Positions 15,241-29,416 of a DNA stretch of 42,839 nt are shown in pieces. A model generated the notes under the pieces. It made no database searches. It had not been told where the DNA came from and worked only from the letters and a program-made list of their open reading frames with translations. This DNA is from Kiritimatiellia bacterium (lineage in GTDB: Bacteria; Verrucomicrobiota; Kiritimatiellia; UBA8416; SLMC01), in contig SLKS01000064.1 of NCBI GenBank assembly GCA_007134465.1, forward strand, positions 1-42,839, in the 5' to 3' direction. How positions within the stretch are numbered: the first letter of the stretch is position 1; each line of letters begins with the position of its first letter. Position numbers and translations under genes: made by a program.

Positions 15241-16017
15241 TTATCCCCCAAGAAATCCGGCAACGGCTTCGAGCATCTCTACCGAGAGCCGTTCGAAGAA
15301 ATCGCTGCCGAACTGCAAGGTGAACGCCAGCATGCCAATCCCGGCCAGCAGCCGGAACGGCAGGGCCAGGAACAGGATGTTGAAATCAGGCGCCAGCCGC
15401 CCGATCAGTCCGAACGAGGCGTTCACGATCAGCGCTGCGCCCATCACCGGCAGCGCCAGCGTCAAGCCCAGCGTAAACAGACGCGAACCGAGTCCGACAA
15501 TCGCCGCCGCGGCGGCGGTCTGGCCTGGATCGGGCAGGCGCGGACCGGCCTGAAAGCTCAGCGCCAGAATGCGCAACAGCGCCAGATGCCCGTCGAACAG
15601 CAGGAACAGGAGAATAAAGATCGTTTGCAGCAGTTGCGTTGTAAGAGGATTCGACGCGCCACCGATCGGGTCCACGCTGCGCGCCATCATAAGCGCGCTG
15701 GCCCGGCCCACATTCGCGCCGGCGAAGTCCAGGACGGCCACGAAAATGTTGCAGATCAGCGCCGTGCCGACCCCCAGAAACAGCTCGGCCCCCATCGCGT
15801 AGGCCAGCGTGCCGAAATCGTTCATGCCGCGCGCGGCCGTCATCCAGCTTTCCGGCAACGTAGGCAGAATCGCCACCGCCATGGCCAGCGCGAACGCCAC
15901 GCGCATGCGCGGCGACAACCGCGCTCCTCCGTAGAACGGAGTCAGTGCCACAATCCCCATGATGCGCGCGATCACCAGCAAAAGCACCTGCGGAAGATGG
16001 CCTAGAGAAAGGGTCAT
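15241..16017 (-). CDS. fliR: Flagellar export apparatus protein FliR
   Basis: 258 residues from ATG 16017. Hydrophobic throughout, with the FliR N-terminus LPQVLLLVIARIMGIVALTPFYG and the segment LDFAGANVGRASALMMARSVDPI. FliR forms the FliP5-Q4-R1 export gate at the base of the flagellar type III system. Normally it follows fliQ directly. Here it is separated from fliQ by about 2.6 kb holding the SprA-related gene, a small unknown gene and repeats. No flhB is found in the window. No clear ribosome-binding site precedes the start. A sigma-54 element lies 147 bases upstream at 16164-16180. Confidence 0.95.
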   Translation of the reverse strand: MTLSLGHLPQVLLLVIARIMGIVALTPFYGGARLSPRMRVAFALAMAVAILPTLPESWMTAARGMNDFGTLAYAMGAELFLGVGTALICNIFVAVLDFAGANVGRASALMMARSVDPIGGASNPLTTQLLQTIFILLFLLFDGHLALLRILALSFQAGPRLPDPGQTAAAAAIVGLGSRLFTLGLTLALPVMGAALIVNASFGLIGRLAPDFNILFLALPFRLLAGIGMLAFTLQFGSDFFERLSVEMLEAVAGFLGG

Positions 16018-16163: not shown

Positions 16164-16180
16164 AAGCAGTCGCGATGCCA
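16164..16180 (-). promoter_or_regulatory. Sigma-54 (-24/-12) promoter for fliR
   Basis: Read on the minus strand: TGGCATCGCGACTGCTT. GG and GC are separated by exactly 10 bases, as the RpoN consensus (TGGCAC-N5-TTGCW) requires. Predicted start of transcription is about 16154, giving a leader of about 137 bases to fliR. A pyrimidine-rich repeat array (minus strand) lies immediately upstream at 16181-16330. Confidence 0.7.
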
Positions 16181-16602
16181 TAGAGGGGATGAAGAGAGGG
16201 ATGAGGGCGGAAACCTGAAACCTGAAGAGAGGGATGCTTGCCCGCCGGCTTGTCCTGAGTCGCTGTTGCGCAGAAGGGAGCGCTCGGGCGGAGGCGGGAG
16301 GGCGGAAACCTGAAACCTGAAGGAGCGTGGAAGGCAAGCCCCGCTCCGTGTCACCCCGTCACCGGGCAAGCCACGCCGGAGGCTTCCCCCATCCTTGTCT
16401 CGATCATCGTCCCGATCGCTGTCGCCGACGATCAAGACAAGGATCGTGACAACGATGAAGACCGACGAAGATCGCGACAAGGATGAAGCCGACCCACCCC
16501 CCTTCCGGCATCATCTTTGGCCGAACGCTTCGTTCAATCTTCTCCCGGAATTGTCAAACTTCGGGAGTCCCCCGGCAGAGCCGGGGGCTTACCCTGTTCT
16601 GT

Positions 16603-16793
16603 TAGACGGCATCCGAAAAGAGTCTGCCTGCACAGGTTGTCATCCCGCGCGTCCCGCCGTAGTTTGTTGTTCACGAAGGCGGAAGCCTGCGAGGGATCTC
16701 GGCGGAACGCCGCTACACAAAGGGGTTTCGCGAAGCGAGATTCCTCGCAAGCTCGGAATGACAAACATACCCGACCCTTTTCGGATGTCGTCT
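16603..16793. mobile_element. MITE-like inverted-repeat element
   Basis: 21-base terminal inverted repeats (16603-16623 and 16773-16793, 19 of 21 paired; core gacggcatccgaaaag) bound a 190-base non-coding unit. Inside is a GAGATTCCTCG...CTCGGAATGACA core that recurs at 42629-42694. No transposase is encoded. The structure suits a non-autonomous element, though mobility is inferred. Confidence 0.5.
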
Positions 16794-17440
16794 AGTTAAT
16801 GACGTTGTGCGCGGCGAAAAAAAGGCGACAGGCTGCAGCATAGCGCTTGCTAATTGGCGCGGGATCGGGCAGGTTCCACCCATAATGCACGGGCACGGAG
16901 TGAGCCTTGACGGCCTGTGGAGCAACAACCACGAAGAGCGCGAAGAGCACGAAGATTTTGGCCCGCGAATGGACGCGAATGAAGAAGATTTAACCACGGA
17001 AAACGCGGAATACACGGAAGAAGATTAGGGCGAAAGATTACGGCGAAAGATTAGGGGTCGGGCATGCCACGCCGTAGGCTTTGCGAAGGCGGGCGGGTGG
17101 TGAAAAAAGAAAGTTTAACCACGGAGCGCACGGAGAACACGGAGGGCTATCAGGCGGACATACTAGGCCTGGAATAAGCGAGGGTTTCGTCGCGAGAGTG
17201 CGCAAACGTCTGCGGATGGGGTGCTTGAGACGGGGCGCGCGATTCTCGCATATTGAAATATGGGTGAAATGCGCGCCCCGCCTCAAGTGCCGCAGGCGTT
17301 GGCGTTGGCGTGCTCGTAGCAGAAAAACTCGCTTATTTTAGGACTAGGAACCAAGAACGAAGAACAACGAACACCCATCCGTTCGCCCATCCTCATTCAT
17401 CACTCATCATTCCGCACTCATCATTCTCTTCCCCGGTCGG

Positions 17441-18178
17441 CTACGCGATGGCGAAGAAATGCGGGGGATGGTCCGATTCGTCTTCCTGCAGCCGCCTTTC
17501 TTCCTGCTCCTGGCGGAGGGCTTCCGATTTTTCGGCGAGCGCTTCGGCTTCGATTTGGCTGGCGCGCGCGGCGATGGCGGCGTCTTCCGGCGAGGGATCG
17601 GCGGGAGCCAGCGCGGCCGCCCGCATGCGTCGGGCCTGCACGATCTTGCCGTCCGGATCGCCTGCGGGCGCATGAATGGATATGTCGGCCGAGCCGCCTA
17701 TGGCATAGGCCCGCCCGTCGGGCCCGATCTGGTATTCGTAGGTGACATTGGTCGCCCCGGCGGCGGCATGCGCCTGTTCGTGAGCGCGCACATGCGCATC
17801 GCGCTGCCGCAATTCCTCCACCTGTCTCTGCTCGCCCTCGCTCAACTCCCCTGCGCGAGGCTCGTCTTCCGCGCCGGCCGCCTCGCGACGGACGGATTCC
17901 TCCATCCGGCAACGCGAACAGACGCCGCAATAGCAAGTGCGCAAGGCAACGGAATCCTCCGCATCGCCCCGCACCGCGCGCGAACTCTCCAGCTCGGCCT
18001 GGCCCGTTTCGCGGCCCGATGGCGCATAGGTGTCTTCCGCGACTTGGCCTTGCGCATCCGGCTCTCCATACGCCCTGCCATCCGAATCCGGCATCGCGCG
18101 TCCGCGCAACGCTTCCGAAGCCCCGTAATACTCTTCGAGCCCTACAGGGACGCTTGTCGCCAGTTCCGATACCTGCAT
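17441..18178 (-). CDS. SprA-related (CJM1_0395-type) putative metalloprotease-family protein
   Basis: 245 residues from ATG 18178, preceded by GGAGGT at ideal distance. Residues about 120-215 match the SprA-related family: LRQRDAHVRAHEQAHAAAG contains an H-E-x2-H-like zinc motif (HEQAH). It is followed by YEYQIGPDGRAYAIGGSADI, then GDPDGKIVQARRMRAAALAPADPS. The N-terminal half is acidic with CYCGVCSRC, a second possible metal site; the tail is charged coiled coil. No signal peptide is seen. Members occur in many flagellated bacteria and are annotated as putative metalloproteases without biochemical proof. The placement between fliQ and fliR and the FliA promoter at 18199-18225 tie it to late flagellar expression. 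Confidence 0.85.
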   Translation of the reverse strand: MQVSELATSVPVGLEEYYGASEALRGRAMPDSDGRAYGEPDAQGQVAEDTYAPSGRETGQAELESSRAVRGDAEDSVALRTCYCGVCSRCRMEESVRREAAGAEDEPRAGELSEGEQRQVEELRQRDAHVRAHEQAHAAAGATNVTYEYQIGPDGRAYAIGGSADISIHAPAGDPDGKIVQARRMRAAALAPADPSPEDAAIAARASQIEAEALAEKSEALRQEQEERRLQEDESDHPPHFFAIA

Positions 18179-18198
18179 ATCGCACACCTCCAAAACCC

Positions 18199-18225
18199 TT
18201 ATCGGCGTTTCCGGGGATTTCTTAA
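18199..18225 (-). promoter_or_regulatory. Sigma-28 (FliA) promoter of the SprA-related gene
   Basis: On the minus strand TTAAGAAA (18225-18218), an 11-base spacer, then GCCGATAA (18206-18199). The -10 is identical to the sigma-28 consensus. The -35 differs in its second base and its last three (consensus TAAAGTTT). The spacing is exactly as expected. Transcription would start about 18192, just ahead of the GGAGGT ribosome-binding site. fliA itself is at 29413-30186. Confidence 0.75.
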
Positions 18226-18251
18226 GCGGAATTTCGGGTGCGATCAACTGC

Positions 18252-18290
18252 TTAAGGCGGGCTTCGCCCGCAACCCAATTTGTTGTTCTA
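18252..18290. repeat. GGCGGGC-hairpin repeat copy
   Basis: gcgggcttcgcccgcaaccc followed by aatttgttgttctac. The same module occurs at about 126-160 and 30938-30967 with changed loop bases. It forms a 6-base-pair GC stem. There is no T-run on either side, so it is not an obvious terminator. Confidence 0.65.
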
Positions 18291-18303
18291 CGGACGATGT
18301 CGC

Positions 18304-18495
18304 TCACAGAAAGTTGGCGGGGGGATTGGCGGGTTCGGCCAGATAATTGAACAGCGCGTTGTAATGGTCGTAGCGCATGTAGGAGGTTTTGCCTGCGCAG
18401 ATGCCGCCGCAGGCGCGGCTGGCGATCTTCTCGAGCACGGCCCGCTTGGCCTTGCGCGCGGCCACGGTCATTTCATGGCAAATGTCCGGATGCAC
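18304..18495 (-). CDS. Small hypothetical protein, start uncertain, possibly 5'-truncated
   Basis: 63 residues from GTG 18495, or 55 from ATG 18471. The sequence VAARKAKRAVLEKIASRACG, then GKTSYMRYDHYNALFNYL, has strongly coding-like G/C third positions up to the edge of a repeat at about 18529. That implies the reading frame once extended further or that the repeat landed at its 5' end. Four cysteines are present (YC, IC, AC, IC) if the upstream part is included. No ribosome-binding site is seen and no family is recognised. It lies between fliQ and the SprA-related gene on the same strand. Confidence 0.4.
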   Translation of the reverse strand: MHPDICHEMTVAARKAKRAVLEKIASRACGGICAGKTSYMRYDHYNALFNYLAEPANPPANFL

Positions 18496-18554
18496 GACAT
18501 AGACGATGCCGCAATAGACTTTTGGGGAAAGGCGGCGGGGCGGGCAGGCGAAGG

Positions 18555-18604
18555 ACGACGTTTTTTGCGGCCACACAGCGGCCGCAAAGAGGAGTGTAAA
18601 AAAA
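18555..18604. repeat. Dispersed hairpin repeat (tttgcggcc...ggccgcaaa), copy 1
   Basis: A T-run, then a 9-base-pair stem TTTGCGGCC/GGCCGCAAA with a 7-base loop, then gaggagtgtaaaa. The second copy at 21044-21093 has an 11-base-pair stem with compensating changes, and a half-copy lies at 20149-20175. Conservation of the stem with changed loop bases suggests a structured element. Confidence 0.65.
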
Positions 18605-18609
18605 CGGGC

Positions 18610-18656
18610 CTCCCGCCTTTCACTCATCATTCCGCATTCATCATTCTCTTCATCCC
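18610..18656. repeat. ATGATGAA-rich repeat at the fliQ stop
   Basis: On the minus strand the fliQ TGA (18652-18650) is followed at once by agagaatgatgaatgcgg and aatgatgagtg. This is the same module found at 17391, 19917, 20827, 21143, 23981, 26930 and 30178. Here it lacks a sigma-54 element. Confidence 0.75.
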
Positions 18657-18919
18657 CGCACGGCGGCGAACAGGCTGTACATTTCCTCGAAATAGCTGGA
18701 CATGGTCTGGATCATCCAGGGCAGGGCGAATCCGATGACGATAGCGGAGATAACAAGCTTGGGAACAAAAGTAAGGCTCATGTCCTTGATGGACGTGACC
18801 GTCTGGATAATGTTGATCAGCACGCCCACCACGATAGCCGTGATCAGCACCGGCGCCATCATCACGCCGGCCACAAAAATCGCCCGATAAGCCATATCCA
18901 ATGCCATTTGCGTGGTCAT
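18650..18919 (-). CDS. fliQ: Flagellar export apparatus protein FliQ
   Basis: 89 residues, the normal length. Two hydrophobic helices (YRAIFVAGVMMAPVLITAIVVGVLINIIQ and KLVISAIVIGFALPWMIQTM) surround the conserved TSIKDMSLTFVPKL. FliQ is part of the FliPQR gate. The gap to fliP (18920-19095) is filled with TTCGTCGTTCCTTG-type and GGTGACCC-type repeats, and I see neither a ribosome-binding site nor a promoter there. The stop codon is inside a repeat unit. Confidence 0.95.
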   Translation of the reverse strand: MTTQMALDMAYRAIFVAGVMMAPVLITAIVVGVLINIIQTVTSIKDMSLTFVPKLVISAIVIGFALPWMIQTMSSYFEEMYSLFAAVRG

Positions 18920-19095
18920 AGGGGTTCGTCGTTCCTTGTTCGTCGTTACTTGTTCGTCGTTCCTTGTTCTTCGTTCGTCGTTCTTTGTTCGCCGTTGTTC
19001 TGTTGGACCCGGTGACCCGATGGCCCGGTGACCCGCAGACTGATCTGATCACTGGTTACTGGTCACTATCTTCCCTCCTGGGCCCGATCCGCGCG
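18920..19095. repeat. Repeat-filled gap between fliP and fliQ
   Basis: About 80 bases of ttcgtcgttccttgttcgtc-type units (18924-19000) are followed by cccggtgacccgatggcccg (19012-19035) and actggttactggtcac (19049-19067). Related modules occur at 16021, 17346, 38088, 38926 and 3999. Nothing gene-like is seen. Confidence 0.75.
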
Positions 19096-19857
19096 TCAAG
19101 TCACGAAGCTGGAGACCAGACCGCGCACGAGCAGGGTCCAGCCGTCGGCCAGCACAAAAAAGAAAATCTTAATCGGCACGGAAATCATCATGGGCGGCAG
19201 CATCATCATGCCAAGCGACATAAGGCTGGATGCGATGACGAGGTCAATCACCAGAAACGGCAGATAGATGAGAAAGCCCATCTGGAAAGCGGTTTTAAGC
19301 TCGCTAAGCATGAAAGCGGGAATCAGCACATCGAGCGTGATCTCGTCCATGCTGTTCGGCGTGGGCTTGTTGGCCAGATCGAGAAAGAGGATCAGTTCCT
19401 TCTCGCCCGTCTGCGAGGCCATGAACTGGCGCAGCGGGGCCATGCCCCGGCTCCAGGCGTCGGTTTGGGAGATACGCTCTTCCATATAGGGCTGGATGGC
19501 GTCCTCGTGGACCGTGCGAAAGACCGGCGCCATGATGAAGAAGGTGAGAAACAGGGAGAGGGCGGCCAGTATCTGGCCGGGCGGACTCTGCTGCGTGCCG
19601 AGAGCCTGGCGCATGAACCCGAAGACAATCAGCAGCCGCGTAAAGGAGGTCATCATGATCACCGCCGACGGGGCAAGCGAGAGGGCGGTAAAGATGAGCA
19701 ACAACTGGATGGCGCGCGAGGTTTGCGCAGGCGAATCGCCTTCGTCGAACTGAATGCGCACGCCGGCGGGCGCCGGACCCGGCGCGGCGGCAGGCGCCTG
19801 CGCCCGCGCAAACCCGGCACAGCCCAGCGCCATCGCGCAGACCAGAAACAGAATCAT
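19096..19857 (-). CDS. fliP: Flagellar export apparatus protein FliP
   Basis: 253 residues from ATG 19857. A cleavable signal peptide (residues 1-21, ending FARAQA) is typical of FliP. It is followed by four hydrophobic segments with SRAIQLLLIFTALSLAPSAV, TSFTRLLIVFGFMRQALGTQ, then FLIYLPFLVIDLVIAS and SLGMMMLPPMMISVPIKIF. This is the pentameric FliP of the export gate. ATG 19857 is preferred over ATG 19875 because AAGGAAAGG precedes it and because a sigma-54 start predicted at 19877 leaves no leader for the longer form. Confidence 0.95.
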   Translation of the reverse strand: MILFLVCAMALGCAGFARAQAPAAAPGPAPAGVRIQFDEGDSPAQTSRAIQLLLIFTALSLAPSAVIMMTSFTRLLIVFGFMRQALGTQQSPPGQILAALSLFLTFFIMAPVFRTVHEDAIQPYMEERISQTDAWSRGMAPLRQFMASQTGEKELILFLDLANKPTPNSMDEITLDVLIPAFMLSELKTAFQMGFLIYLPFLVIDLVIASSLMSLGMMMLPPMMISVPIKIFFFVLADGWTLLVRGLVSSFVT

Positions 19858-19886
19858 GCCGCCTTTCCTTCGCATACGCGCGAAGA

Positions 19887-19903
19887 TAGCAGACAGGATG
19901 CCA
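19887..19903 (-). promoter_or_regulatory. Sigma-54 (-24/-12) promoter for fliP
   Basis: Minus-strand TGGCATCCTGTCTGCTA with GG-N10-GC spacing. The predicted transcription start is 19877, giving a 20-base leader with a ribosome-binding site before ATG 19857. The pyrimidine-rich array 19904-19985 sits directly upstream. Confidence 0.75.
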
Positions 19904-20190
19904 TGGGAAGGGGGAAGAGAATGATGAAGGCGGAATGATGAATGATGAGGGCGGAAACCTGAAACCTGAAGAGAAGAAGGCGATCCGTCATCGGGCATGC
20001 CACGCCGACTTGTCCTGAATCGCGTTAGCGAAGAAGGGCTTGTCCGCCGTAGCTGTTCTTGCGGAGGCGGAAGGCTTTGCGAAGGCGGGCAGGCCACGCC
20101 GTAGGCTTTGCGAAGGCGGGTCAACAAGTCACCGAGTCACCGAGTCGTGGCCGCAAAGGAGATGGTAAAAAGAGCGGCGAAGACGGACGA
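19904..20190. repeat. Upstream array of fliP and repeat cluster between fliO and fliP
   Basis: From the promoter outward on the plus strand: gggaagggggaagag, then aatgatgaaggcgg and aatgatgaatgatgag, then gcggaaacctgaaacctgaa (to about 19985). Beyond it are three imperfect copies of the catgccacgccgtaggctt/tgcgaaggcggg module (19996-20125), caagtcaccgagtcaccgag (20131-20150) and a half-copy of the gcggcc hairpin repeat (20149-20175). No gene is seen. Confidence 0.75.
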
Positions 20191-20778
20191 TCAGGCGGAA
20201 GTTGCCGGCGAGTCGGCGGGCGGTTCGTCGGGTGGGTCGAAGGTGGCGATGGAGACGACGCCGTCGCGGCCGGAACACAGCAGGGCGCGCCGATTGCCCA
20301 CGGCGACCAGCAGCAATCGGCGCCGATGATCGAGCGAGAGGCTGCCGATCAGGCTCATGTCGTCGTCTTCCTTGCGACCGGGAAAGGCCCCGCGCACGCG
20401 ACGGCGCAACACGATGTTGACCGCCACCAGCAGACCCAACACCAGCATGGCGGCGAATAAGGAACGCCAGGGACTGAGCTCGGATTGACGACCGAGCTTG
20501 GGAAGATCGTCTTCCGTTGACCCGGACTCGGGTTTCGTTCCGCTTTTCCGAAACAAACCGCTGACATCGCGCGGCGCGACAGGTTCGGACACTGCGGTGA
20601 CATCCGTCGGCTCCGGCACGGCGGTATCGGACTTGGCCATGGACGCCAGCGGACTTTCGCCCCCGTTATGCCGGGTCGGCATGCCCGACTCGTCGCCACG
20701 TACGCGCCCGTGCGCGCACCCCAGGAAGATCGCCGGGAAAACAAACAAAAACGCTTTGGTTTTGACGTTTCGTATCAT
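20191..20778 (-). CDS. fliO: Flagellar biosynthesis protein FliO
   Basis: 195 residues. A short N-terminal hydrophobic signal (AFLFVFPAIFLGCA) is followed by a disordered acidic stretch. A single transmembrane helix lies at about 112-130 (SLFAAMLVLGLLVAVNIVL). The FliO domain is then seen as SLSLDHRRRLLLVAVGNRRALLCSG. FliO is a chaperone for FliP assembly and is normally upstream of fliP, as here. Identification rests on position and the C-terminal motif, since FliO is poorly conserved. The predicted sigma-54 start (20782) leaves only about 4 bases of leader before ATG 20778. Confidence 0.85.
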   Translation of the reverse strand: MIRNVKTKAFLFVFPAIFLGCAHGRVRGDESGMPTRHNGGESPLASMAKSDTAVPEPTDVTAVSEPVAPRDVSGLFRKSGTKPESGSTEDDLPKLGRQSELSPWRSLFAAMLVLGLLVAVNIVLRRRVRGAFPGRKEDDDMSLIGSLSLDHRRRLLLVAVGNRRALLCSGRDGVVSIATFDPPDEPPADSPATSA

Positions 20779-20791
20779 GGCAGGCAAACGG

Positions 20792-20808
20792 TAGCAATCG
20801 GGATGCCA
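20792..20808 (-). promoter_or_regulatory. Sigma-54 (-24/-12) promoter for fliO
   Basis: Minus-strand TGGCATCCCGATTGCTA. This is the best match of the six in the window, with TTGCT at -12 and GG-N10-GC spacing. The pyrimidine-rich array follows immediately upstream (20809-20925). Confidence 0.75.
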
Positions 20809-21389
20809 CGGGAAGGGGGGAAGAGAATGATGAAGGCGGAATGATGAATGATGAGGAAAGGGAAAGGAAGAATGGTTGAGGGGGGTAAGAGAGGGATGAG
20901 GGAGGAAACCTGAAACCTGCTTGTCCCGCCGCAGCTGTTCTTTCGAAGGCGGGCATGCCACGCCGGCTTGTCCGCCGTCTTGTCCGCCGTAGCCGCGAAG
21001 CGCGAAGGCGGAAGCCGCGAAGGCGGGTCGGCGGGTGGCTGAAGACGACATTTTTTTGCGGCCACGCAGTGGCCGCAAAGAGGAGTGTAAAAGGCGGCGG
21101 GTGCGCCAGCGCGGCAAAGGCATGCGTTTGGCCCACCGCTTTTTCATCACTCATCATTCCGCATTCATCATTAAAATAGGCCCCCTGCCGCCTTGCGCGG
21201 CAGGAGCCGGAGATGGAAAAGTGCGCCCTTCCACTCCTGTCTCCCGTTCCCGCGTGCCCGCCTTCGCAAAGCCTTCCCCCTTTACCCTTCGCGGCTTCCG
21301 CCTTATAGCAAGGTCGCGGGGGACGGCGTCAGAATGCGAATTGCTGGCTTGCGTTCGGGCGGGCATGTCCGCTAGAGTGGCTTTTATTG
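20809..21389. repeat. Upstream array of fliO and repeat cluster before the kinase gene
   Basis: 20809-20925 is the promoter-linked array: gggaaggggggaagagaatg, aatgatgaatgatgagg, aaagggaaaggaagaatgg, gagagggatgagggagg and aaacctgaaacctg modules. Next come ttgtccgccgtagccgcg/gaaggcggg modules (20927-21035), hairpin repeat copy 2 (21044-21093, 11-base-pair stem), an atcattccgcattcatcat copy (21143-21173), a ctgccgccttgcgcggcag hairpin (21185-21203) and unremarkable sequence to the kinase start. No gene and no convincing kinase promoter are seen. Confidence 0.7.
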
Positions 21390-22961
21390 ATGAATAAGCA
21401 AAAGAACCAGGCAAGCGGTCGACAGCAGGGCGAGTTTCTGGCGTTTCAGGTACGGTTCCAGAAGCTGTTCGCGTCCATGCCGGCGGCGGTTTTCTCCCGG
21501 CACGGGCGAGTGACGCATCTTAATGCGGCGGCCGAACGCGTGCTGGGGCTGACGCTGGATGCGGTGCGCGACCGGACACTGTCGGCGGCAGGGTTCAAGG
21601 TTACGGACGAAAACGGGATGGCGCTCCCCGCGCGCGGGTTGCCGTGGCAGCGCGCGCGCCAGGAACAGACCGCGCGTGCGGAAGACGTGATCGGCCTGAT
21701 CCGGCCGGACGGCGAACGGCGCTGGCTGCAATGCGCGTGCGCGCCGTTCCGCGAAGACGCGCGCGGGCGAACGCAATCGGTCGTCGCGATTCTGTCGGAT
21801 TTGACTCGGTTCGCCCGGCTGCGCAGTCAATCGCTGCAGGCGCAAAAGATGGAAGCGATCGGCGCGCTGACGGGCGGGATTGCGCACGATTTCAACAACA
21901 TTCTTTCCTCGATCCGTTCCGCCGCGCAGCTTTCGCTGCTGGATGCCGGCTTGTCGGTGGCGGTACGCGAAGCGATTTTCGATATCGAAGCCGAAACCAT
22001 TCGCGGCGCGGAACTGGTCAAGCAGCTTCTTCTGTTCAGCAGGCCGGCGGAAACAAGGCGAAAAAGCACGGCCTTGAATGAGGCCGTCCGGCGACTGCGC
22101 CATTTGTTGCGCCGCACGTTTCCGAAGACCATCCGCATCGAAACGCATCTGCCGCCGCACCCGATTCGGGTCCAGATCGGGCCCACGCAGTTGGAACAGC
22201 TTGTGCTGAACCTGTGCCTGAACGCGCGCGACGCGATGCCCGCAGGCGGGGAACTGGTTCTTCGGGCGAGCCTGGTTCCCGCTGCGGATCTGGGCGAAAC
22301 GGAGCCGCGCGCGGCCCGCAAAACCTATGCGCGCCTGGACATATCGGATACGGGCGTGGGCATTCCGCCGGAAACGCTTCCGAAAGTGTTCGACCCGTTC
22401 TTCACCTCGAAGGAAGATCATGGCGGCACAGGCCTTGGCCTGGCGATCGTGGATCGGATCGTGCGGCAGGCGGGCGGCAAGATTCAGGCCGAAAGCGCAC
22501 CCGGCAAGGGCACAACCATGACCGTGCATCTGCCGGCCCGCAGAACCCGGGCGGACGCCAAACCCGGCGCGCCTGCGCGGACCGAGCCGATGGTGGCCGG
22601 ATACGAAACCGTGCTCCTGGCGGACGACGAGCCGGTCACCCTTAAATCCACCGCCCGCTTCCTGGAACGATACGGCTACCGGACCCTGACAGCGGGCGAC
22701 GGCCACGAGGCGCTCGACCTGTTCCGCCGGCATCGCCAAGACATCCGCCTGACGCTGATGGATTACGAGATGCCCGACATGACCGGCGCCGACTGCCTCG
22801 CGGCCATCCGTCAGGAAAAACCGTCCATGAAAGCCGTGCTGCTTAGCGGACACCCGCCTTCGGAACGTGGCGCCGCCGCCACAAACGCCGACGCGTTTCT
22901 CCAAAAACCGTTCGATTTCCAGCGGCTGCTGACGATCATACGGCAGGTTCTGGACGGCTGA
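21390..22961 (+). CDS. Hybrid sensor histidine kinase (PAS-HisKA-HATPase-REC)
   Basis: 523 residues; a TTG start 3 bases earlier is possible. A PAS-like domain (about 20-145) precedes HisKA with the H-box GGIAHDFNN (His near 164). The HATPase shows LVLNLCLNARDAMP (N box), DTGVGIPPE (G1), FDPFFTSK (F) and GGTGLGLAIV (G2). A C-terminal receiver domain has the acidic pair LADDEP, phospho-acceptor Asp near 458 in LMDYEMPDMTG, and the conserved Lys in LQKPF. No membrane segment is seen, so it senses a cytoplasmic signal. It lies between fliO and flgL. Given the sigma-54 promoters around it, it is a candidate FlgS/NtrB-like regulator; the matching NtrC-type activator is not in the window. Confidence 0.9.
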   Translation: MNKQKNQASGRQQGEFLAFQVRFQKLFASMPAAVFSRHGRVTHLNAAAERVLGLTLDAVRDRTLSAAGFKVTDENGMALPARGLPWQRARQEQTARAEDVIGLIRPDGERRWLQCACAPFREDARGRTQSVVAILSDLTRFARLRSQSLQAQKMEAIGALTGGIAHDFNNILSSIRSAAQLSLLDAGLSVAVREAIFDIEAETIRGAELVKQLLLFSRPAETRRKSTALNEAVRRLRHLLRRTFPKTIRIETHLPPHPIRVQIGPTQLEQLVLNLCLNARDAMPAGGELVLRASLVPAADLGETEPRAARKTYARLDISDTGVGIPPETLPKVFDPFFTSKEDHGGTGLGLAIVDRIVRQAGGKIQAESAPGKGTTMTVHLPARRTRADAKPGAPARTEPMVAGYETVLLADDEPVTLKSTARFLERYGYRTLTAGDGHEALDLFRRHRQDIRLTLMDYEMPDMTGADCLAAIRQEKPSMKAVLLSGHPPSERGAAATNADAFLQKPFDFQRLLTIIRQVLDG

Positions 22962-22972
22962 CGGAGGGGCGA

Positions 22973-23896
22973 CTACAGCCAGTGCAGGAGCGTGGACTGG
23001 TTCATGATGCCGGCCGTGACTTGCATGGCGGCTTCATAGGCCAGTTGCGACTGGGACAGGCGCGTGATCGCCAAGGCGATATCCACGGATTCCTCCTGTT
23101 CCAGGGCTTTTTGGACATTGGCCTGATGCTGGCCCAGCATTTCGACGCTCAACTGGATTCTTTGGCGGCGCGCGCCATTGGCGCCCAGCAAGTTCACGAC
23201 ATGGTCCAGACTCTCGTTCATGTCGGCCAGCGCGGTCGGATCGAGCGTGGTTTGGCCGGCCAGCAGCCGATCCCGCATGCGGATCAGATTGTCGAACAGG
23301 TCGAGGGCGCCCGTCTGGAATACGGCGTTGGGGCTCACGGCATCGGCGCCCGGCACATTGGCCTCGATATAGACGCCACGACTGACTTCCACAAAGCGGA
23401 TATCGGCATTCCCGACGTAGCTCACGGCCGAAATCAGGCCTTCCGCATCCGTCGTTGTCACGAACGGGGTCGCGAGCGTTTCCGTGCCGCCAAACAGATA
23501 GCGGCCGCCAATGCTGGTGTTGGCCAAATCGAGCAGGGCGCCTAGCAGTTCGTCCACTTCTTTGCCTATGGTCTCCAGATCGGCCGGCGTTTGCGCGCTA
23601 TTGCCGCCCATGACGGCCAACTCCGACCCGCGTTGAAACAGATTCAACATTTGCTGAAACACATTGTCGGCCACCAGCAGATCGCGATCCACCCGTTCGG
23701 CATTCAGCGCGTACTGGTCCATGCCGCTCAAATCCTTGCGCAGCCGCTGGATCACTTCGTACGAGCCGGGCCCGTCGGAAGGCACGGAAATTTTGCGGCC
23801 ACTGGCAATTTGTTCCTGCAGCTTGCGCAGGGAAAGCTGGTTGGACGCAATGTTCGTCCGCAACATCCGATAGGTCATTTCGTCGGTAATTCGCAT
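22973..23896 (-). CDS. flgL: Flagellar hook-associated protein FlgL (HAP3)
   Basis: 307 residues. The N-terminal flagellin-like D0/D1 domain is MRITDEMTYRMLRTNIASNQ with LRKLQEQIASGRKISVPSD. The C-terminal helix contains ALEQEESVDIALAITRLSQ and SQLAYEAAMQ. FlgL joins the hook to the filament and is exported without a cleaved signal. AAGGAG lies 8 bases before ATG 23896. The sigma-54 element at 23950-23966 gives a 44-base leader. It is convergent with the kinase gene, with 11 bases between the stops, and no flgK is adjacent. Confidence 0.93.
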   Translation of the reverse strand: MRITDEMTYRMLRTNIASNQLSLRKLQEQIASGRKISVPSDGPGSYEVIQRLRKDLSGMDQYALNAERVDRDLLVADNVFQQMLNLFQRGSELAVMGGNSAQTPADLETIGKEVDELLGALLDLANTSIGGRYLFGGTETLATPFVTTTDAEGLISAVSYVGNADIRFVEVSRGVYIEANVPGADAVSPNAVFQTGALDLFDNLIRMRDRLLAGQTTLDPTALADMNESLDHVVNLLGANGARRQRIQLSVEMLGQHQANVQKALEQEESVDIALAITRLSQSQLAYEAAMQVTAGIMNQSTLLHWL

Positions 23897-23949
23897 GGCA
23901 TGCACTCCTTCGGTTCGCGTTCGCAGAGAGATGGAGAACCGATTCCCTT

Positions 23950-23966
23950 TAGCAAGGGCCGTGCCG
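23950..23966 (-). promoter_or_regulatory. Sigma-54 (-24/-12) promoter for flgL
   Basis: Minus-strand CGGCACGGCCCTTGCTA. GGCACG and TTGCT are exact consensus and the GG-N10-GC spacing is met. The predicted transcription start is about 23940. Confidence 0.75.
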
Positions 23967-24226
23967 CAGGGAGGGGGAAGAGAATGATGAAGGCGGAATG
24001 ATGAATGATGAAGAAAGGGAAAGGAAGAATGGTTGAGGGTTGAAGCACGAATGAAGAAGATTAAACCACGGAGGGCATTTCCGTAGTCGTCGCCGTAGTC
24101 GTCCACCGAATCCTTTTGTTTTTTGCCGCAGCAATGCGGGATTAAGGCGCTAAAGCGACTCAGGACAACAAGCATCCCTCTCTTCCCCCCATCAACCATC
24201 AACCATTAACCATTCTTCCTCCCCTG

Positions 24227-24243
24227 CGGCATGTCGCTTGCTA
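24227..24243 (+). promoter_or_regulatory. Sigma-54 (-24/-12) promoter for the zinc-ribbon gene
   Basis: CGGCATGTCGCTTGCTA with GG-N10-GC spacing and TTGCT at -12. The predicted start of transcription is about 24253, which leaves a 38-base leader carrying AAAGGAGG. Confidence 0.7.
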
Positions 24244-24290
24244 ACAGAACATCGCATCCTGCGGAAAGAAAGCGCGAAAGGAGGCGCATC

Positions 24291-24488
24291 ATGGTCAAGA
24301 ATCTCAAAATCGCGATCCAATGCTGCGAATGCCATCGGGTTAAGGACGGAGCGGTCTGGCACGAGGAGCCGCACCGCGACGACGTCGCCTATTCGCACGG
24401 CTACTGTCCCACCTGCATGCGCAACGCGCTGATACGGTTCGGGTTGGAATCCAACATGGTCAACCAGGCGCTGGCGATGGCGCAATAG
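24291..24488 (+). CDS. Small zinc-ribbon protein (C-x2-C ... SHGxCPxC type)
   Basis: 65 residues from ATG 24291, with AAAGGAGG upstream. Two knuckles are present: QCCECHRVKDG and SHGYCPTCMRN. The CxxC...SHGxCPxC layout is like the small domain found at the C-terminus of some response-regulator and PAS proteins (CxxCkkIRd...SHgiCPeC), here as a stand-alone protein. Metal binding is likely; the role is unknown. It has its own sigma-54 promoter and lies upstream of flhA, so a flagellar function such as a chaperone or regulatory partner is a reasonable inference. Confidence 0.75.
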   Translation: MVKNLKIAIQCCECHRVKDGAVWHEEPHRDDVAYSHGYCPTCMRNALIRFGLESNMVNQALAMAQ

Positions 24489-24649
24489 GGCGCGCAGCCG
24501 GACAAATCGTCAGGGCGGGCCGATATCCGCAACCGGAAAGAATTGAACAGAAGGGAACGAAGAAGGGCGGGCACACTTCGTTTCCTTCGTGATCTTGCCG
24601 TAGAACCCGAAGACGCGGGAACAAGTCGATAATCAAGGGCCGGGGGAAC

Positions 24650-26767
24650 ATGGAAGCACAGAGCCAGAATCGTTTTGCGCGGGCGGATTTCATCATCGCG
24701 GCGGCGCTGACTTCGATCTTGGCGGTGCTGATCATTCCCATCCACCCGCGTCTGCTGGACCTGATGCTGGTGCTAAGCATCGCCGTGGGCGTGCTGATTC
24801 TGATTCTGACGACACAGATCAGCAATCCGTTGCAGTTGTCGTCGTTTCCGTCGCTTCTTCTGTTGCTTACGCTGTTCCGGCTGGCGCTGAACGTGGCGAC
24901 CACGCGCCAGATCCTGCTGCGCGCCTTTGCGGGAAACGTGATTCAGGCGTTCGGCCAGTTCGTGGTGGGCGGCAACTATGTGGTGGGCATTGTCGTCTTC
25001 CTGATTCTGGTGGTGATCAACTTCATGGTGATCACCAAAGGCGCGGGCCGGATCGCGGAGGTGACGGCACGGTTCACGCTGGACTCTATGCCCGGCAAGC
25101 AGATGAGCATTGACGCGGACTTGAGCTCGGGCCTGATTGACGAGGCCACGGCGCTGGCGCGGCGCGAAGCGTTGCGGCGCGAGTCGGACTTTTACGGAGC
25201 GATGGACGGCGCCAGCAAGTTCGTGCGCGGCGATGCGATCGCGGGGCTGATCATTACGCTCATCAACATTGCGGGCGGATTCGCGGTGGGCATGCTCCAG
25301 CGCGGCATGCCTGCGCATCACGCGTTGCGCACCTATACGCTGCTGACGGTCGGCGACGGGCTGGTGGCGCAAATCCCGGCGCTGGTCATTTCGACGGCGG
25401 CCGGCATGATGGTGACGCGCGCGGCGTCGGACGACACGCTGGGCAAGGACATTGCCGGCCAACTGCTGAAGCGGGCGAAGCCGCTAACGACCACCGGCCT
25501 CATATTGGCGGCCATTTCACTGGTGCCGGGCTTGCCGTTCCTGCCGTTCGTGGCGCTGGGCGGCACATTGACGGCGTTGGGTCTGGCGCGCAAGGCGGCG
25601 CCGGCGGAAGCGGAGGAAAAGCCGGAAGGAAAAACCGATGCCAGCGGCAAGGCGCTCGAGTCGGGCTCGGCACGCGGCGCATTGCCGGCTGCGGGCTCCG
25701 ACAAGCAGCCGCCCCCGGTTTCGCCCATGGATCTGGAGATCGGGTTCGGGTTGGTGCCGCTGGTGGATCCGGCGCAGGGCGGACAGTTGATCGAACGCAT
25801 CCGACTGATCCGCAACCAAATCGCCGAGGAACTCGGTTTCGTGCTGCCGCCGGTCAATGTGAAAGACAATATCCAATTGAAGAACACGGAATATTGCATC
25901 AAAGTGCGGGGTATCGAATTGGCGCGCGGCACGGTTCAGCCCGGCCGACTGATGGCCATCAACCCCGGCGGCGGCGCGCCGCTCGAGGGCTACAAGCCGG
26001 TGCGCGAACCGGCCTTCGGGTTCGAAGCCTATTGGATACCGAAAATCGCCCGCGAAAACGCCGAGTCCGCCGGCATGACCGTCGTGGACGATGCCAGCGT
26101 GATCACCACGCATCTGGCCGAGGAATCGAAACGGCATGCGGCCGACATCCTGACACGCCAGGACGTGAGCGACATGGTCGGCCGCCTCAAGCAAACCCAT
26201 CCGTCGGTCGTCGAGGAGCTGCTGCCGAACAAAATGACGATCGGCAAAGTGCATCGGGTGCTGCAAAGCCTGTTGCGGGAACGGGTCTCGATCCGCGATC
26301 TGCCCGCAGTTCTGGAGACGCTGGCCGACCAGGCCGACCTTACGCGCGATGTCGGGCTGCTGACGGAACATTGCCGCCGCACGCTGGGCGCGTCCATTTG
26401 CCACGGCCGCCTGACCCCCGACGGAACCTTGCAGGCGATCGGGCTGCACCCGGACCTCGAACAGATGATCCGCCAGCACACCAAACGCGACGGCGCCGAA
26501 ATCGGTCTGCTCGTCATGCCGCCAGCCCTGGCGCACGAGGTTCTGGTCCACATCCGCAAGGCGGTGGAAACCGCGCGCGCCAAAGGCGGCGACCCGGTTC
26601 TGCTCTGCTCGCCGCTGATCCGGCCTCAGGTGCGAAGGCTCACCGAGCACGAGTTCCGGGACATGCCCGTGATCTCCTTCGCCGAAACGCCCGACAATGT
26701 CAAAATAGACATTCTGGGCATGGCCGTCGCGCCCGCCGCCGGCAAAGCCGAAGAGATGGCGGCGTAG
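24650..26767 (+). CDS. flhA: Flagellar export apparatus protein FlhA
   Basis: 705 residues, standard length. About eight transmembrane helices fill residues 15-320. The conserved FHIPEP-region equivalents include PSLLLLLTLFRLALNVATTR, GAGRIAEVTARFTLDSMPGKQ and MSIDADLSSGLIDE. The cytoplasmic domain (about 350-700) has EIGFGLVPLVDPAQGG and ELLPNKMTIGKVHRVLQSLL. FlhA forms the nonameric ring that receives export substrates. A 161-base gap precedes it with no strong promoter. Read-through from the upstream zinc-ribbon gene is likely. Confidence 0.97.
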   Translation: MEAQSQNRFARADFIIAAALTSILAVLIIPIHPRLLDLMLVLSIAVGVLILILTTQISNPLQLSSFPSLLLLLTLFRLALNVATTRQILLRAFAGNVIQAFGQFVVGGNYVVGIVVFLILVVINFMVITKGAGRIAEVTARFTLDSMPGKQMSIDADLSSGLIDEATALARREALRRESDFYGAMDGASKFVRGDAIAGLIITLINIAGGFAVGMLQRGMPAHHALRTYTLLTVGDGLVAQIPALVISTAAGMMVTRAASDDTLGKDIAGQLLKRAKPLTTTGLILAAISLVPGLPFLPFVALGGTLTALGLARKAAPAEAEEKPEGKTDASGKALESGSARGALPAAGSDKQPPPVSPMDLEIGFGLVPLVDPAQGGQLIERIRLIRNQIAEELGFVLPPVNVKDNIQLKNTEYCIKVRGIELARGTVQPGRLMAINPGGGAPLEGYKPVREPAFGFEAYWIPKIARENAESAGMTVVDDASVITTHLAEESKRHAADILTRQDVSDMVGRLKQTHPSVVEELLPNKMTIGKVHRVLQSLLRERVSIRDLPAVLETLADQADLTRDVGLLTEHCRRTLGASICHGRLTPDGTLQAIGLHPDLEQMIRQHTKRDGAEIGLLVMPPALAHEVLVHIRKAVETARAKGGDPVLLCSPLIRPQVRRLTEHEFRDMPVISFAETPDNVKIDILGMAVAPAAGKAEEMAA

Positions 26768-27039
26768 AGACGAGAGCGATCAGGGGCCAGGGACCAATCT
26801 GCGGGTCATCGAGTCATCGGGTCACAATAAGAACGACAAAGCGACTCGGTGACTTGGTGACACGGTGATTCGGCCTTCTTCCCTTCAGGTTTCAGGTTTC
26901 CGCCCTCATCCCTCTCTTCCCCCCCTCCCCTCATCATTCATCATTCCGCATTCATCATTCTCTTCTCTGGCATCGGCCCTGCTAACGTGCGTGCGAGGGA
27001 TCGTTTCATGGCCGGGAGAGGCACAGGGGAAAGGCAACG
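26768..27039. promoter_or_regulatory. flhA-flhF intergenic region with upstream array
   Basis: After the flhA stop come gggtcatcgagtcatcgggt and gactcggtgacttggtgac units (26806-26870). The composite array cttcaggtttcaggtttccg, ctcatccctctcttcccc and catcattcatcattccgc (26875-26967) then leads directly to the sigma-54 element at 26968-26984. No gene is seen. Confidence 0.7.
26968..26984 (+). promoter_or_regulatory. Sigma-54 (-24/-12) promoter for the flhF-flhG-fliA unit
   Basis: TGGCATCGGCCCTGCTA with GG-N10-GC spacing. The predicted start of transcription is 26994, leaving a 46-base leader with GGGGAAAGG before ATG 27040. It would place fliA (sigma-28) under sigma-54 control. Confidence 0.75.
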
Positions 27040-28155
27040 ATGAAGATTCGCAGCTACAAGGGTACGAGCCTGGAGAAGCTACACGAGGCGATCGCCCGCG
27101 ACTTGGGTCCGCAAGCGATGATCGTGCATCGCGGTCAGGCCGGATTGAGCCGGTTTCTGGGCAAGCCGAGACACGAGCTGATTGCCGTGGCCGACGACGG
27201 GTCGGCGGACGCGCATTTGATCTCGCATGCGTCCGGGGCGCCGGAATGGAAGAAACTGCTGACGGTTCAAGACCGCAAGTTCGAGGCGCTGGAAGCCGCG
27301 CTGGAGAGAGTGGGTCGCGATGTGGAACGGCTGACGGCCTGCGGCGCGGGACGATCCGACGCGGCGATCGCAACGGCAGGCGCAAACCTGCCGGAACCGA
27401 TGCGGTCGTGGGATGCGCGTTTTCTGGAAAAGGTGCGCGGTCAGATTCCCGGTCTGTTCGCCGCCGAGCCGCCGCCCGATCTGGCGGAAGAGCTGGGCGA
27501 ATTCTTTCCGGTCCAGGAATCGTTTCGGGTGGGCGCGGACGGGCGCCGCCCGCGTATCGTGGCGCTGGTCGGCCCGACCGGCAGCGGCAAGACGACCACG
27601 CTGTCGAAGCTGGCGGCCAAATGGAGCCTCGAGGACCATCTGAACGTGGGTGTGATCACGGCCGACACCTACCGGATCGCGGCGGTGGATCAGATTCGCG
27701 AATACGCGACGCTGCTCGGCCTGGAAATGAAGGTGGTCTTCTCGGCCGGCGAAGCGCGCCAAGCGGTGGAATCGTTTCGCGACAAGGACGTCATCCTGGC
27801 GGATACGCCCGGCCGCAATTTTTTCGATCCGGTGGCCATGCGCGGCCTGAAAGGCATACTGCAAGCGATGAGCCCGCTGCGCACGCTCTTGCTGACGCCG
27901 GCCACGCTCGAGCGGCAAACGCTCCGCGCGGTGATTCGCCAGCACGCCCTTCTGGCGCCGGACGCGCTGGTGGTGACCAAAACAGACGAAACGCGCTCCT
28001 ACGACGCGTTTACCGTTCTGGCCGGCGAGACGGACTGTCCGGTCGCCTTTCTGACCAATGGCCAGCGGGTGCCGGAAGACATTCTGCCGGCCACGCGCAA
28101 GGCCATCGCCGAACTTGTGCTGTACGGCATGCGGGAAGAAAGGGCGGCGGCATGA
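27040..28155 (+). CDS. flhF: Flagellar SRP-like GTPase FlhF
   Basis: 371 residues. The N-terminus MKIRSYKGTSLEKLHEAIARD is typical of FlhF. The NG domain has GPTGSGKTTTLSKLAAKW (P-loop near 178), ITADTYRIAAVDQIREYA, DTPGRNFFDP (normally DTAGR; here Ala is replaced by Pro) and the guanine-binding TKTDET. FlhF sets flagellar number and pole placement together with FlhG. The stop overlaps the flhG start by 4 bases (ATGA at 28152-28155). Confidence 0.95.
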   Translation: MKIRSYKGTSLEKLHEAIARDLGPQAMIVHRGQAGLSRFLGKPRHELIAVADDGSADAHLISHASGAPEWKKLLTVQDRKFEALEAALERVGRDVERLTACGAGRSDAAIATAGANLPEPMRSWDARFLEKVRGQIPGLFAAEPPPDLAEELGEFFPVQESFRVGADGRRPRIVALVGPTGSGKTTTLSKLAAKWSLEDHLNVGVITADTYRIAAVDQIREYATLLGLEMKVVFSAGEARQAVESFRDKDVILADTPGRNFFDPVAMRGLKGILQAMSPLRTLLLTPATLERQTLRAVIRQHALLAPDALVVTKTDETRSYDAFTVLAGETDCPVAFLTNGQRVPEDILPATRKAIAELVLYGMREERAAA

Positions 28156-29132
28156 CGGAAGGCGAAGATCAGGCGGCCGGCCTGCGGCGCGCAAACGATT
28201 CGCAAACGGCCTTGCTGCCGCGCGGATTGCGCATTGTCGCGGTCAGCAGCGGCAAAGGCGGAGTCGGAAAGACGATGACGTCGATCGGACTGGCCTTTTC
28301 GCTGGCGCGCGCGCAACGCCGGACCTTGCTGATTGACGGAGACGTGGGCATGGCCAACGTGGACATTCAACTGGGCATTGATCCGGAAACGACGTTGCAG
28401 GACGTGGTCTTCGGCAATCGAACGCTGGCCGAGGCGATCGTGACCGTGGAACCGGGGTTGGACGTGCTGCCGTCGCCCTGCGGCGCGCCGGAGATGGCGG
28501 ATCTGGGTCGCGCGCGCCAGCGCCAGTTCGTGGATCAGCTTACGGCGTTTGCGGGCGGCTACGATTTTCTGATCATTGATGTCGGCGCCGGCATTGGCCA
28601 GAACGTGCTGTCGTTTCTGGCGACAGCGCCGGAAACGCTCGTGGTTGTCGCCAACGAGCCCACTTCGATCATGGACGCCTATGCCGTGGTCAAGGCGCTG
28701 CGCCGCCTGCCCGAGCCGCCGCACATCTCGCTGGTGGTCAACATGGTGCGCGATCTTGCCGAGGGCGATGCGCTGGCGGGGCGATTGAACGGGATCGTGA
28801 AACGTTTCCTCGGCGTCGAACTGCCGCTGGCCGGCACAATTGTCTTCGACGAACAGGCGCGGGCCGCCATCCGCGCGCGAAAACCGGTCATGAACTATGC
28901 GCCGCGCTCGCCGTCCGCGCTATGTCTGGCGGAGCTGGGCCGTTCCGTGGCGCACCGCAAGCCGGGCGCCGCGCGCCCGCCGCGCGCCGACGCGGGTCTG
29001 TTCGAAAGCTTGGCCGACATGAAACTGGCCTCGTTCAAAAAGACGGACGCGCCCGCAGCGCCGCCGGCGGCCGGCGGCAATGCCGCTACGCAGCCTGAAA
29101 CACCGTCGCAAACGGAGCGCGAACAGCCATGA
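28152..29132 (+). CDS. flhG: Flagellar MinD-like ATPase FlhG (YlxH/FleN)
   Basis: 326 residues. The deviant Walker A is SSGKGGVGKT (near 28-37). It is followed by LLIDGDVGMANVDIQLGI, DFLIIDVGAGIGQNVLSF and VVVANEPTSIMDAYAVVKAL. FlhG binds membranes and FlhF to limit flagellar number, and in some bacteria restrains a sigma-54 activator (FleQ). That fits the promoters found here. The last 50 residues are Ala/Pro-rich. ATGA overlaps couple it to the genes on both sides. A much longer frame opening upstream of flhF is only the shadow of that gene. Confidence 0.95.
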   Translation: MTEGEDQAAGLRRANDSQTALLPRGLRIVAVSSGKGGVGKTMTSIGLAFSLARAQRRTLLIDGDVGMANVDIQLGIDPETTLQDVVFGNRTLAEAIVTVEPGLDVLPSPCGAPEMADLGRARQRQFVDQLTAFAGGYDFLIIDVGAGIGQNVLSFLATAPETLVVVANEPTSIMDAYAVVKALRRLPEPPHISLVVNMVRDLAEGDALAGRLNGIVKRFLGVELPLAGTIVFDEQARAAIRARKPVMNYAPRSPSALCLAELGRSVAHRKPGAARPPRADAGLFESLADMKLASFKKTDAPAAPPAAGGNAATQPETPSQTEREQP

Positions 29133-29416
29133 GCAAGATTCTGGGCCAACTGGCGGTGGCGATTGGCGGGCTGTTGTTCATTGCGGCCATGACCACCGGT
29201 CTGGTCCGCGGCGTACCGTTGAGCACAACGTTGTTCCGCGCGCTGATCGTCTTCTGCCTTTCCTCCGTGGGCATGGCGCTCTTTTTCCGGTTCTTCTCGA
29301 AAGTGCTGTTCCAGTTCGCCGCCGAACAGATCATGCGCAACCGCGCCGCCAAGGGAACGCGACCGGGCGCGCCCGGCCCGGCGCTGCCGAAAGCCGAGGA
29401 AGGAAAATCTGAATGA
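29129..29416 (+). CDS. Small two-helix membrane protein between flhG and fliA
   Basis: 95 residues. Two hydrophobic segments are visible at about 7-25 (LAVAIGGLLFIAAMTTGLV) and 36-60 (FRALIVFCLSSVGMALFF), followed by a basic, Pro-rich tail. ATGA overlaps tie it to both flhG (29129-29132) and fliA (29413-29416), so it is clearly translated. No family is recognised. The location and strict coupling suggest a role in flagellar regulation, or in tethering of FlhG or FliA at the membrane. That is inference. Confidence 0.75.
   Translation: MSKILGQLAVAIGGLLFIAAMTTGLVRGVPLSTTLFRALIVFCLSSVGMALFFRFFSKVLFQFAAEQIMRNRAAKGTRPGAPGPALPKAEEGKSE

Follow-up and report, generated by a model that had tools for sequence, protein, structure and literature searches.

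The 42,839-nucleotide contig SLKS01000064.1 (hereafter the window) belongs to a metagenome-assembled genome (MAG; GenBank assembly GCA_007134465.1) of a Kiritimatiellia bacterium, with a size of 3.99 Mb in 409 contigs and a completeness of 85%. It carries the flagellar genes fliR, fliQ, fliP, fliO, flgL, flhA, flhF, flhG and a fliA-type sigma factor gene, together with six short intergenic elements that resemble the -24/-12 promoters of sigma-54 (Table 1). We describe here these elements, their counterparts in relatives, and a second sigma-54 factor (RpoN2) and an activator that probably serve them.

Table 1. Flagellar genes, sigma-54-type elements and intergenic repeats of the window.
Feature	Position	Strand	Remarks
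fliR	15241..16017	-	Pfam Bac_export_1, E 1.6e-45; ATG at 16017 picked by reading the sequence
Sigma-54-type -24/-12 element TGGCATCGCGACTGCTT	16164..16180	-	upstream of fliR
fliQ	18650..18919	-	identity from reading the protein sequence
fliP	19096..19857	-	Pfam FliP, E 1e-78
Sigma-54-type element TGGCATCCTGTCTGCTA	19887..19903	-	upstream of fliP
fliO	20191..20778	-	Pfam FliO, E 2.9e-9
Sigma-54-type element TGGCATCCCGATTGCTA	20792..20808	-	upstream of fliO
PAS-HisKA-HATPase-receiver hybrid histidine kinase	21390..22961	+	between fliO and flgL
flgL, flagellin-domain hook-associated protein	22973..23896	-	Pfam Flagellin_N, E 4.4e-20
Sigma-54-type element CGGCACGGCCCTTGCTA	23950..23966	-	upstream of flgL
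Sigma-54-type element CGGCATGTCGCTTGCTA	24227..24243	+	upstream of zinc-ribbon gene, then flhA
Small zinc-ribbon-like protein, 65 amino acids, CxxC...CPTC	24291..24488	+	no family match
flhA	24650..26767	+	Pfam FHIPEP, E 2.6e-252
Sigma-54-type element TGGCATCGGCCCTGCTA	26968..26984	+	upstream of flhF-flhG-(small gene)-fliA
flhF	27040..28155	+	Pfam SRP54, E 5.3e-34
flhG, MinD-type ATPase	28152..29132	+	NCBIfam MinD-like matches under cut-offs; gene context
fliA-type sigma-70 family factor (sigma-28)	29413..30186	+	Pfam Sigma70_r2/r3/r4
Repeats, window	16181-16320, 19904-19975, 20809-20930, 23967-24040, 24130-24226, 26870-26967		
Repeats outside the window	C78 (L061), C382 (L062), C9 (L063)		

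To search both strands of the window we used the exact pattern YGGCAYSNNNNYTGCTW, which yielded six matches, whereas 100 dinucleotide shuffles gave a mean of 0.05 and a maximum of 1. The six coincide with the near-identical sigma-54 promoters that a previous sequence-only reading of this DNA had proposed. All are found outside genes, upstream of start codons and on the correct strand, and they show the GG-N10-GC spacing and the TGGCAY and TTGCW-like hexamers by which sigma-54 promoters are recognized. A looser textbook pattern, TGGCACSNNNNTTGCW with two mismatches, was discarded because in the window its signal could not be separated from noise (17 found, 14.7 expected). Combining gene calls with a reading of the sequence, we measured the distance from the 3' end of each element to the start codon as 13 bp for fliO, 29 bp for fliP (11 bp if an ATG further upstream is used), 47 bp for the zinc-ribbon gene, 53 bp for flgL, 55 bp for flhF and 146 bp for fliR, for which a longer open reading frame starts 32 bp away. 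The 4 to 137 bases given previously fit a count from an inferred transcription start, the distances to the start codon being 13 to about 146 bp. The separate promoters proposed for fliO, fliP and fliR are borne out, each gene having one element upstream. No strict or relaxed match precedes fliQ, and flhA, which starts 161 bp downstream of the stop codon of the zinc-ribbon gene, is probably cotranscribed with it. Pyrimidine-rich intergenic repeats (CATTCATCATTCCGCCTTCATCATTCTCTTCCCC and its relatives, and the types CATTCATCATTCCGCCTTCATCATTCTCTTC and CAACCATTAACCATTCTTCC) stop directly upstream of all six elements, occupying the region in which activators usually bind. The genome contains 12 exact copies of their 15-base core, four adjoining an element and eight located elsewhere with no element.

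Extending the exact search to the whole MAG, with the reversed pattern as a control, yielded 14 matches versus 10. Six of the 14 lie in the 43 kb of the window, that is, in about 1% of the genome, and the reversed pattern was found neither in the window nor in four other flagellar or rpoN2 stretches that we examined. Motility loci therefore account for most of the excess, and a single match elsewhere carries little weight. Nine matches precede flagellar genes (fliR, fliP, fliO, flgL, flhF, the zinc-ribbon gene preceding flhA, motA, fliS and fliW), and the remaining five correspond to rpoN2, a small gene of no known identity on the fliS contig, an Hsp20-like gene and two sites with no clear target. 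Outside the window, the exact matches are found 38 bp upstream of motA, 61 bp upstream of fliW, 179 bp upstream of rpoN2 and 215 bp upstream of fliS. A slight relaxation of the pattern brings in a flgF-type gene, a further gene of the fliS contig and, at 34 bp from rpoN2, a second upstream site. The genome also encodes two complete rpoN genes, both over the family cut-off, and about 18 proteins with strong matches to the sigma-54 activator family PF00158. The presence of rpoN and the bias of the matches towards flagellar genes rather than unrelated intergenic DNA, on which the sequence-only reading had staked its interpretation, both favour sigma-54 control.

The element recurs in relatives. 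In two Pontiella-like genomes of genus g57, G061 and G146, a single 45 kb flagellar cluster holds 8 of 13 and 8 of 10 genome-wide matches, respectively; counting near-matches, these precede fliD, fliW, fliS, fliO, flhA, flgB, flgD, and flgF/G-type and flgL-type genes. In relatives, the element is found 10 bp before flhA itself. In G140, which belongs to the same genus as the MAG, it precedes flhF, motA, flgF, flgB and rpoN2, at different distances, with different spacer letters and in unrelated flanks devoid of the window repeats. Across 45 gene-preceding sites from six genomes, the position three bases before the TGGCA box, which our scan left free, is a C in 37, and TGC is followed by T rather than A in 44; the flagellar sites favour TGGCAT[C/G]-N4-YTGCT. 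Our sample of the class comprises 193 genomes, of which 26 encode FlhA. In the 14 that carry RpoN2, the pattern outnumbers its reversed form (180 versus 87, with an excess in 13 genomes). On the contrary, the 12 genomes with FlhA but no RpoN2 show no excess as a group (61 versus 69); the FlhA of 11 of them belongs to a distant clade. At the flagellar loci of other Verrucomicrobiota classes the same pattern gave few matches, so the regulon as described here is not demonstrated for the phylum as a whole.

Several elements are located 10 to 13 bp before a start codon: that at 20792 in the window and, in G061 and G146, those at L261 12508 and 15770, L262 4834, L264 19419, and L265 8468 and 11730. 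Transcript leaders would then be only about 1-4 nt long, making these flagellar mRNAs possible candidates for leaderless transcripts.

The sequence-only reading did not extend to a dedicated second sigma-54 factor and its activator. RpoN2 contains the AID, core-binding and DNA-binding domains and, in unrooted trees restricted to Verrucomicrobiota sequences, it falls into a single clade of 15 proteins, separated with 100/100 support from the RpoN1 proteins of the class and the phylum, which indicates one origin for this clade. FlhA is likewise split into two far-apart clades, one of 15 genomes including the MAG and the other of 11. RpoN2 is encoded by 14 of the 15 members of the window-type FlhA clade, by none of the other 178 and hence by none of the 11; nearly all genomes with two rpoN genes are flagellated. 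The contrast holds at short evolutionary distance: in genus g57 five flagellated genomes have RpoN2 whereas 13 non-flagellated ones have a single rpoN, and families f1, f13, f30 and f48 show the same pattern, RpoN2 having been lost along with the flagellum. In G431, RpoN2 was found before the genome was shown to encode FlhA; G402, of the same genus and without RpoN2, lacks FlhA. Second rpoN matches in G101 and G121 turned out not to be RpoN2. An element is present within 350 bp upstream of 6 of 15 rpoN2 genes versus 0 of 55 rpoN1 genes, and in G061 rpoN2 lies inside the flagellar cluster. In region I, all 15 RpoN2 proteins share APQLLxWL with an invariant Leu-x-Trp, the Trp being replaced by Ser in 54 of 54 RpoN1 proteins.

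Three observations touch on these factors. In the MAG, a HisKA-HATPase-receiver hybrid kinase (L041 14244-15851, contig C7) begins 94 bp after rpoN2; it is probably part of the rpoN2 operon and is a candidate partner of the flagellar activator. The distant FlhA clade, whose 11 genomes belong to families f24, f38, f41 and f45 (L079-L089) and lack RpoN2, possibly represents a further system of the class, either flagellar or secretory. Two Verrucomicrobiota genomes of other classes carry a divergent RpoN paralogue in a flagellar operon (L339 12724-14127 in G411 and L350 9981-11396 in G391), with the order flhB-flhA-flhF-flhG-fliA-rpoN-(fliW)-csrA, fliW being present in one of the two; this paralogue falls outside the RpoN2 clade.

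Near rpoN2, the MAG encodes an activator with receiver, AAA+ and Fis domains that is orthologous, with 57% identity, to the activator that G061 and G146 encode immediately upstream of the fliS promoter. Using a threshold of 520 bits (lowest orthologue at least 526), we found that 14 of 15 members of the window-type FlhA clade have an orthologue, whereas the other 178 genomes have none and score 366 at best. RpoN2 and the activator, its putative partner, thus co-occur almost perfectly across the class. The activator scores far below the curated cut-offs for FlgR (NF049963, 317 of 750 bits) and FlbD (NF050807, 292 of 750 bits), and its best family match, AtoC, is likewise under cut-off. Two other activators, one in C382 adjoining a repeat copy and one in C452 of G140, were considered as flagellar activators and rejected, since neither is orthologous to the Pontiella flagellar activator. 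In the loop that contacts sigma-54, all 14 orthologues read GAFTDA, whereas 16 other activators of the MAG read GAFTGA or GSFTGA. This loop (L1) touches region I of sigma-54 (PMC7057263), and the matched changes, Trp in region I of RpoN2 and GAFTDA in the activator, suggest a private pair.

We consider it likely that a dedicated pair, one sigma-54 factor and its activator, governs the flagellar regulon and, in several members, transcribes rpoN2 as well. The six elements would be -24/-12 promoters of this regulon, which would comprise the secretion apparatus (fliO, fliP, fliR and flhA), the regulators (flhF-flhG-fliA and fliW), rod and hook genes, the chaperone gene fliS and the motor gene motA. 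The RpoN2 holoenzyme would transcribe these promoters, and the activator, bearing a Fis-type helix-turn-helix, would open them once its receiver is phosphorylated, probably by a motility kinase. In at least some members, RpoN2 or RpoN1 would start rpoN2 from its own sigma-54-type promoter, creating a feed-forward or bootstrap loop, and FliA produced from the flhF operon would drive the late genes. Finally, the paired changes of region I and of the GAFTGA loop may insulate the two proteins from RpoN1 and from other activators. The predicted promoters and their targets, their recurrence in relatives, the two sigma-54 genes, the co-distribution of RpoN2 and the activator with this flagellar type and the matched signatures are what the genomes themselves demonstrate.

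We weighed four other explanations, two of which concern the origin of the elements. In GC-rich DNA they could be chance matches, as might be thought from the 10 matches of the reversed pattern genome-wide; this is contradicted by the excess over shuffles in the window, by the lack of reversed matches in the stretches examined and by the fact that all elements lie upstream, on the right strand and are conserved at orthologues. Chance is so improbable as to be negligible, and is ruled out as the source of the elements in the window and on the flagellar contigs; it may account for the matches at C338 and C63:139. Alternatively, the six could be alike through copying of an element-carrying intergenic repeat rather than through selection on promoters, given that a repeat ends just before each one. 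This also appears highly improbable: most copies of the core, those away from elements, carry none, no repeat accompanies the elements of rpoN2, fliS and motA, similarity ends after the element, and the orthologous elements of other genomes sit in unrelated sequence. Repeat-borne copies are ruled out as the origin of the elements by these repeat-free orthologues, and the orthologous promoters, with their other spacings, thus argue against both chance and repeat copying.

The two remaining alternatives accept the promoters and concern the proteins that read them. Housekeeping RpoN1 might do so, with RpoN2 as a motility-associated paralogue whose role is more restricted. The helix-turn-helix VHETTVSRA and the RpoN box are identical in both factors, which would allow RpoN1 to recognize these promoters as well, and in G060 (89% complete), which has window-type FlhA and the activator, RpoN2 was not found. 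The excess of the pattern, however, tracks RpoN2 rather than flagella in general, and RpoN2 disappears together with the flagellum in g57 and in the four families, so that we regard a reading by RpoN1 as unlikely. It could also be that RpoN2 is indeed dedicated but can be driven by any activator, GAFTDA and Leu-x-Trp being lineage markers instead of an insulating interface. GAFTDA is not exclusive to the flagellar activator: two non-flagellar close paralogues have it and one has GSFTDA, and it is also present in a cell-division activator of Desulfovibrio and listed among the variants compatible with activation (PMC4641369), for which reason we rejected it as a unique flagellar mark. The Trp, in turn, marks a clade and may reflect simple ancestry. 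Against this stand the location of both changes on surfaces known to contact each other (PMC7057263), their invariance in the clade and the almost perfect co-occurrence of the two genes; we give this explanation a little less than an even chance. Other points, besides those on the DNA-reading parts, on G060 and on GAFTDA, weigh against a dedicated pair. In G140 (79% complete) the activator was not found, and G104 shows no excess of the pattern (14 versus 17). Only 6 of the 15 rpoN2 genes have a recognizable element, in one case 322 bp away. The MAG is fragmented, with the elements, RpoN2 and the activator on separate contigs, and the co-occurrence of RpoN2, activator and flagellum is partly due to shared ancestry.

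A more far-reaching version of the dedicated pair can be put forward tentatively, and we would not quite favour it over its negation: the flagellum of this class would have an insulated transcription channel, in which RpoN2 and its activator have co-evolved at their contact surface (Leu-x-Trp versus GAFTDA), drive transcription of almost every flagellar operon, rpoN2 included, and are acquired or lost with the flagellum as one module. As part of this proposal, the different RpoN paralogue in the flagellar operon of G411 and G391 would mean that flagella have taken up a private sigma-54 at least twice in the phylum.

There are precedents in Proteobacteria. In the alphaproteobacterium Rhodobacter (Cereibacter) sphaeroides, RpoN2 is likewise specific to a flagellum, fla1, and works with its own activators, FleQ or FleQ-FleT (PMC11999139); here too, there is more than one rpoN and one is linked to flagella. 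Yet R. sphaeroides has four copies and the MAG, from another phylum, two; its RpoN1 and RpoN2 promoters differ at position -11, with no such difference known between the two factors studied here, and our activator, with its receiver domain and GAFTDA, is not clearly FleQ. RpoN2 of Kiritimatiellia is a clade of its own among the RpoN proteins of Verrucomicrobiota, to which our trees are confined, and its likeness to the R. sphaeroides protein would be one of function. Xanthomonas campestris also has a second rpoN in its flagellar cluster, as G061 does, and needs it for flagella (PMC7280030); this is a gammaproteobacterium, and the available text of that study mentions neither class-wide co-loss nor matched changes in region I and the GAFTGA loop. 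Campylobacter FlgR and Caulobacter FlbD are also response-regulator AAA+ activators of flagellar sigma-54 promoters, and the activator described here belongs to neither family. Closer in phylogeny, a 2025 promoter-matrix survey predicted that motility genes of Opitutia (Verrucomicrobiota) and Planctomycetia have sigma-54 promoters (PMC12316311). It advances the same idea for the same or a neighbouring phylum and discusses multiple rpoN for R. sphaeroides; its main text, as far as available, makes no mention of Kiritimatiell-, and in the open-licence literature we found no paper linking Kiritimatiell- with sigma-54 or RpoN.

Some neighbouring genes deserve mention. The hybrid histidine kinase gene of the window has no sigma-54 element, and its participation in the flagellar regulatory circuit is possible but unproven; the zinc-ribbon-like protein is a possible motility regulator. 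In the MAG, an exact element (L047 1175-1191, contig C353) precedes by 45 bp a gene of the Hsp20 family whose product has a hydrophobic stretch at its N-terminus, and G140 has a comparable site (L277 6565) before a gene beginning MTDTGNRKLTALTVLVAVLLAAV. In Pontiella-like genomes, an asparagine-synthase-like gene is located in the flagellar cluster directly before fliW (L261 1067-3028 and L266 1206-3170); a separate sigma-54 element is located 25 bp upstream of this gene, and the fliW element lies inside its coding end.

Our results may bear on an observation made in Pontiella agarivorans (Kiritimatiellales), probably of the same class, which has a complete set of flagellar genes but in which neither flagella nor motility were seen (PMC10880615); the available text of that report names no regulator or promoter for these genes. 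Conditional control by sigma-54 would fit the missing flagella and offers a testable reason for them, namely that expression of the genes would depend on an activator signal that the culture used did not provide. More generally, natural test cases for how a bacterium with several sigma-54 factors and dozens of activators prevents cross-talk are few, and almost all come from Proteobacteria. The case described here lies outside that group, in bacteria that have received little study, and it provides exact candidate residues on both partners together with a class-wide natural experiment of joint loss.

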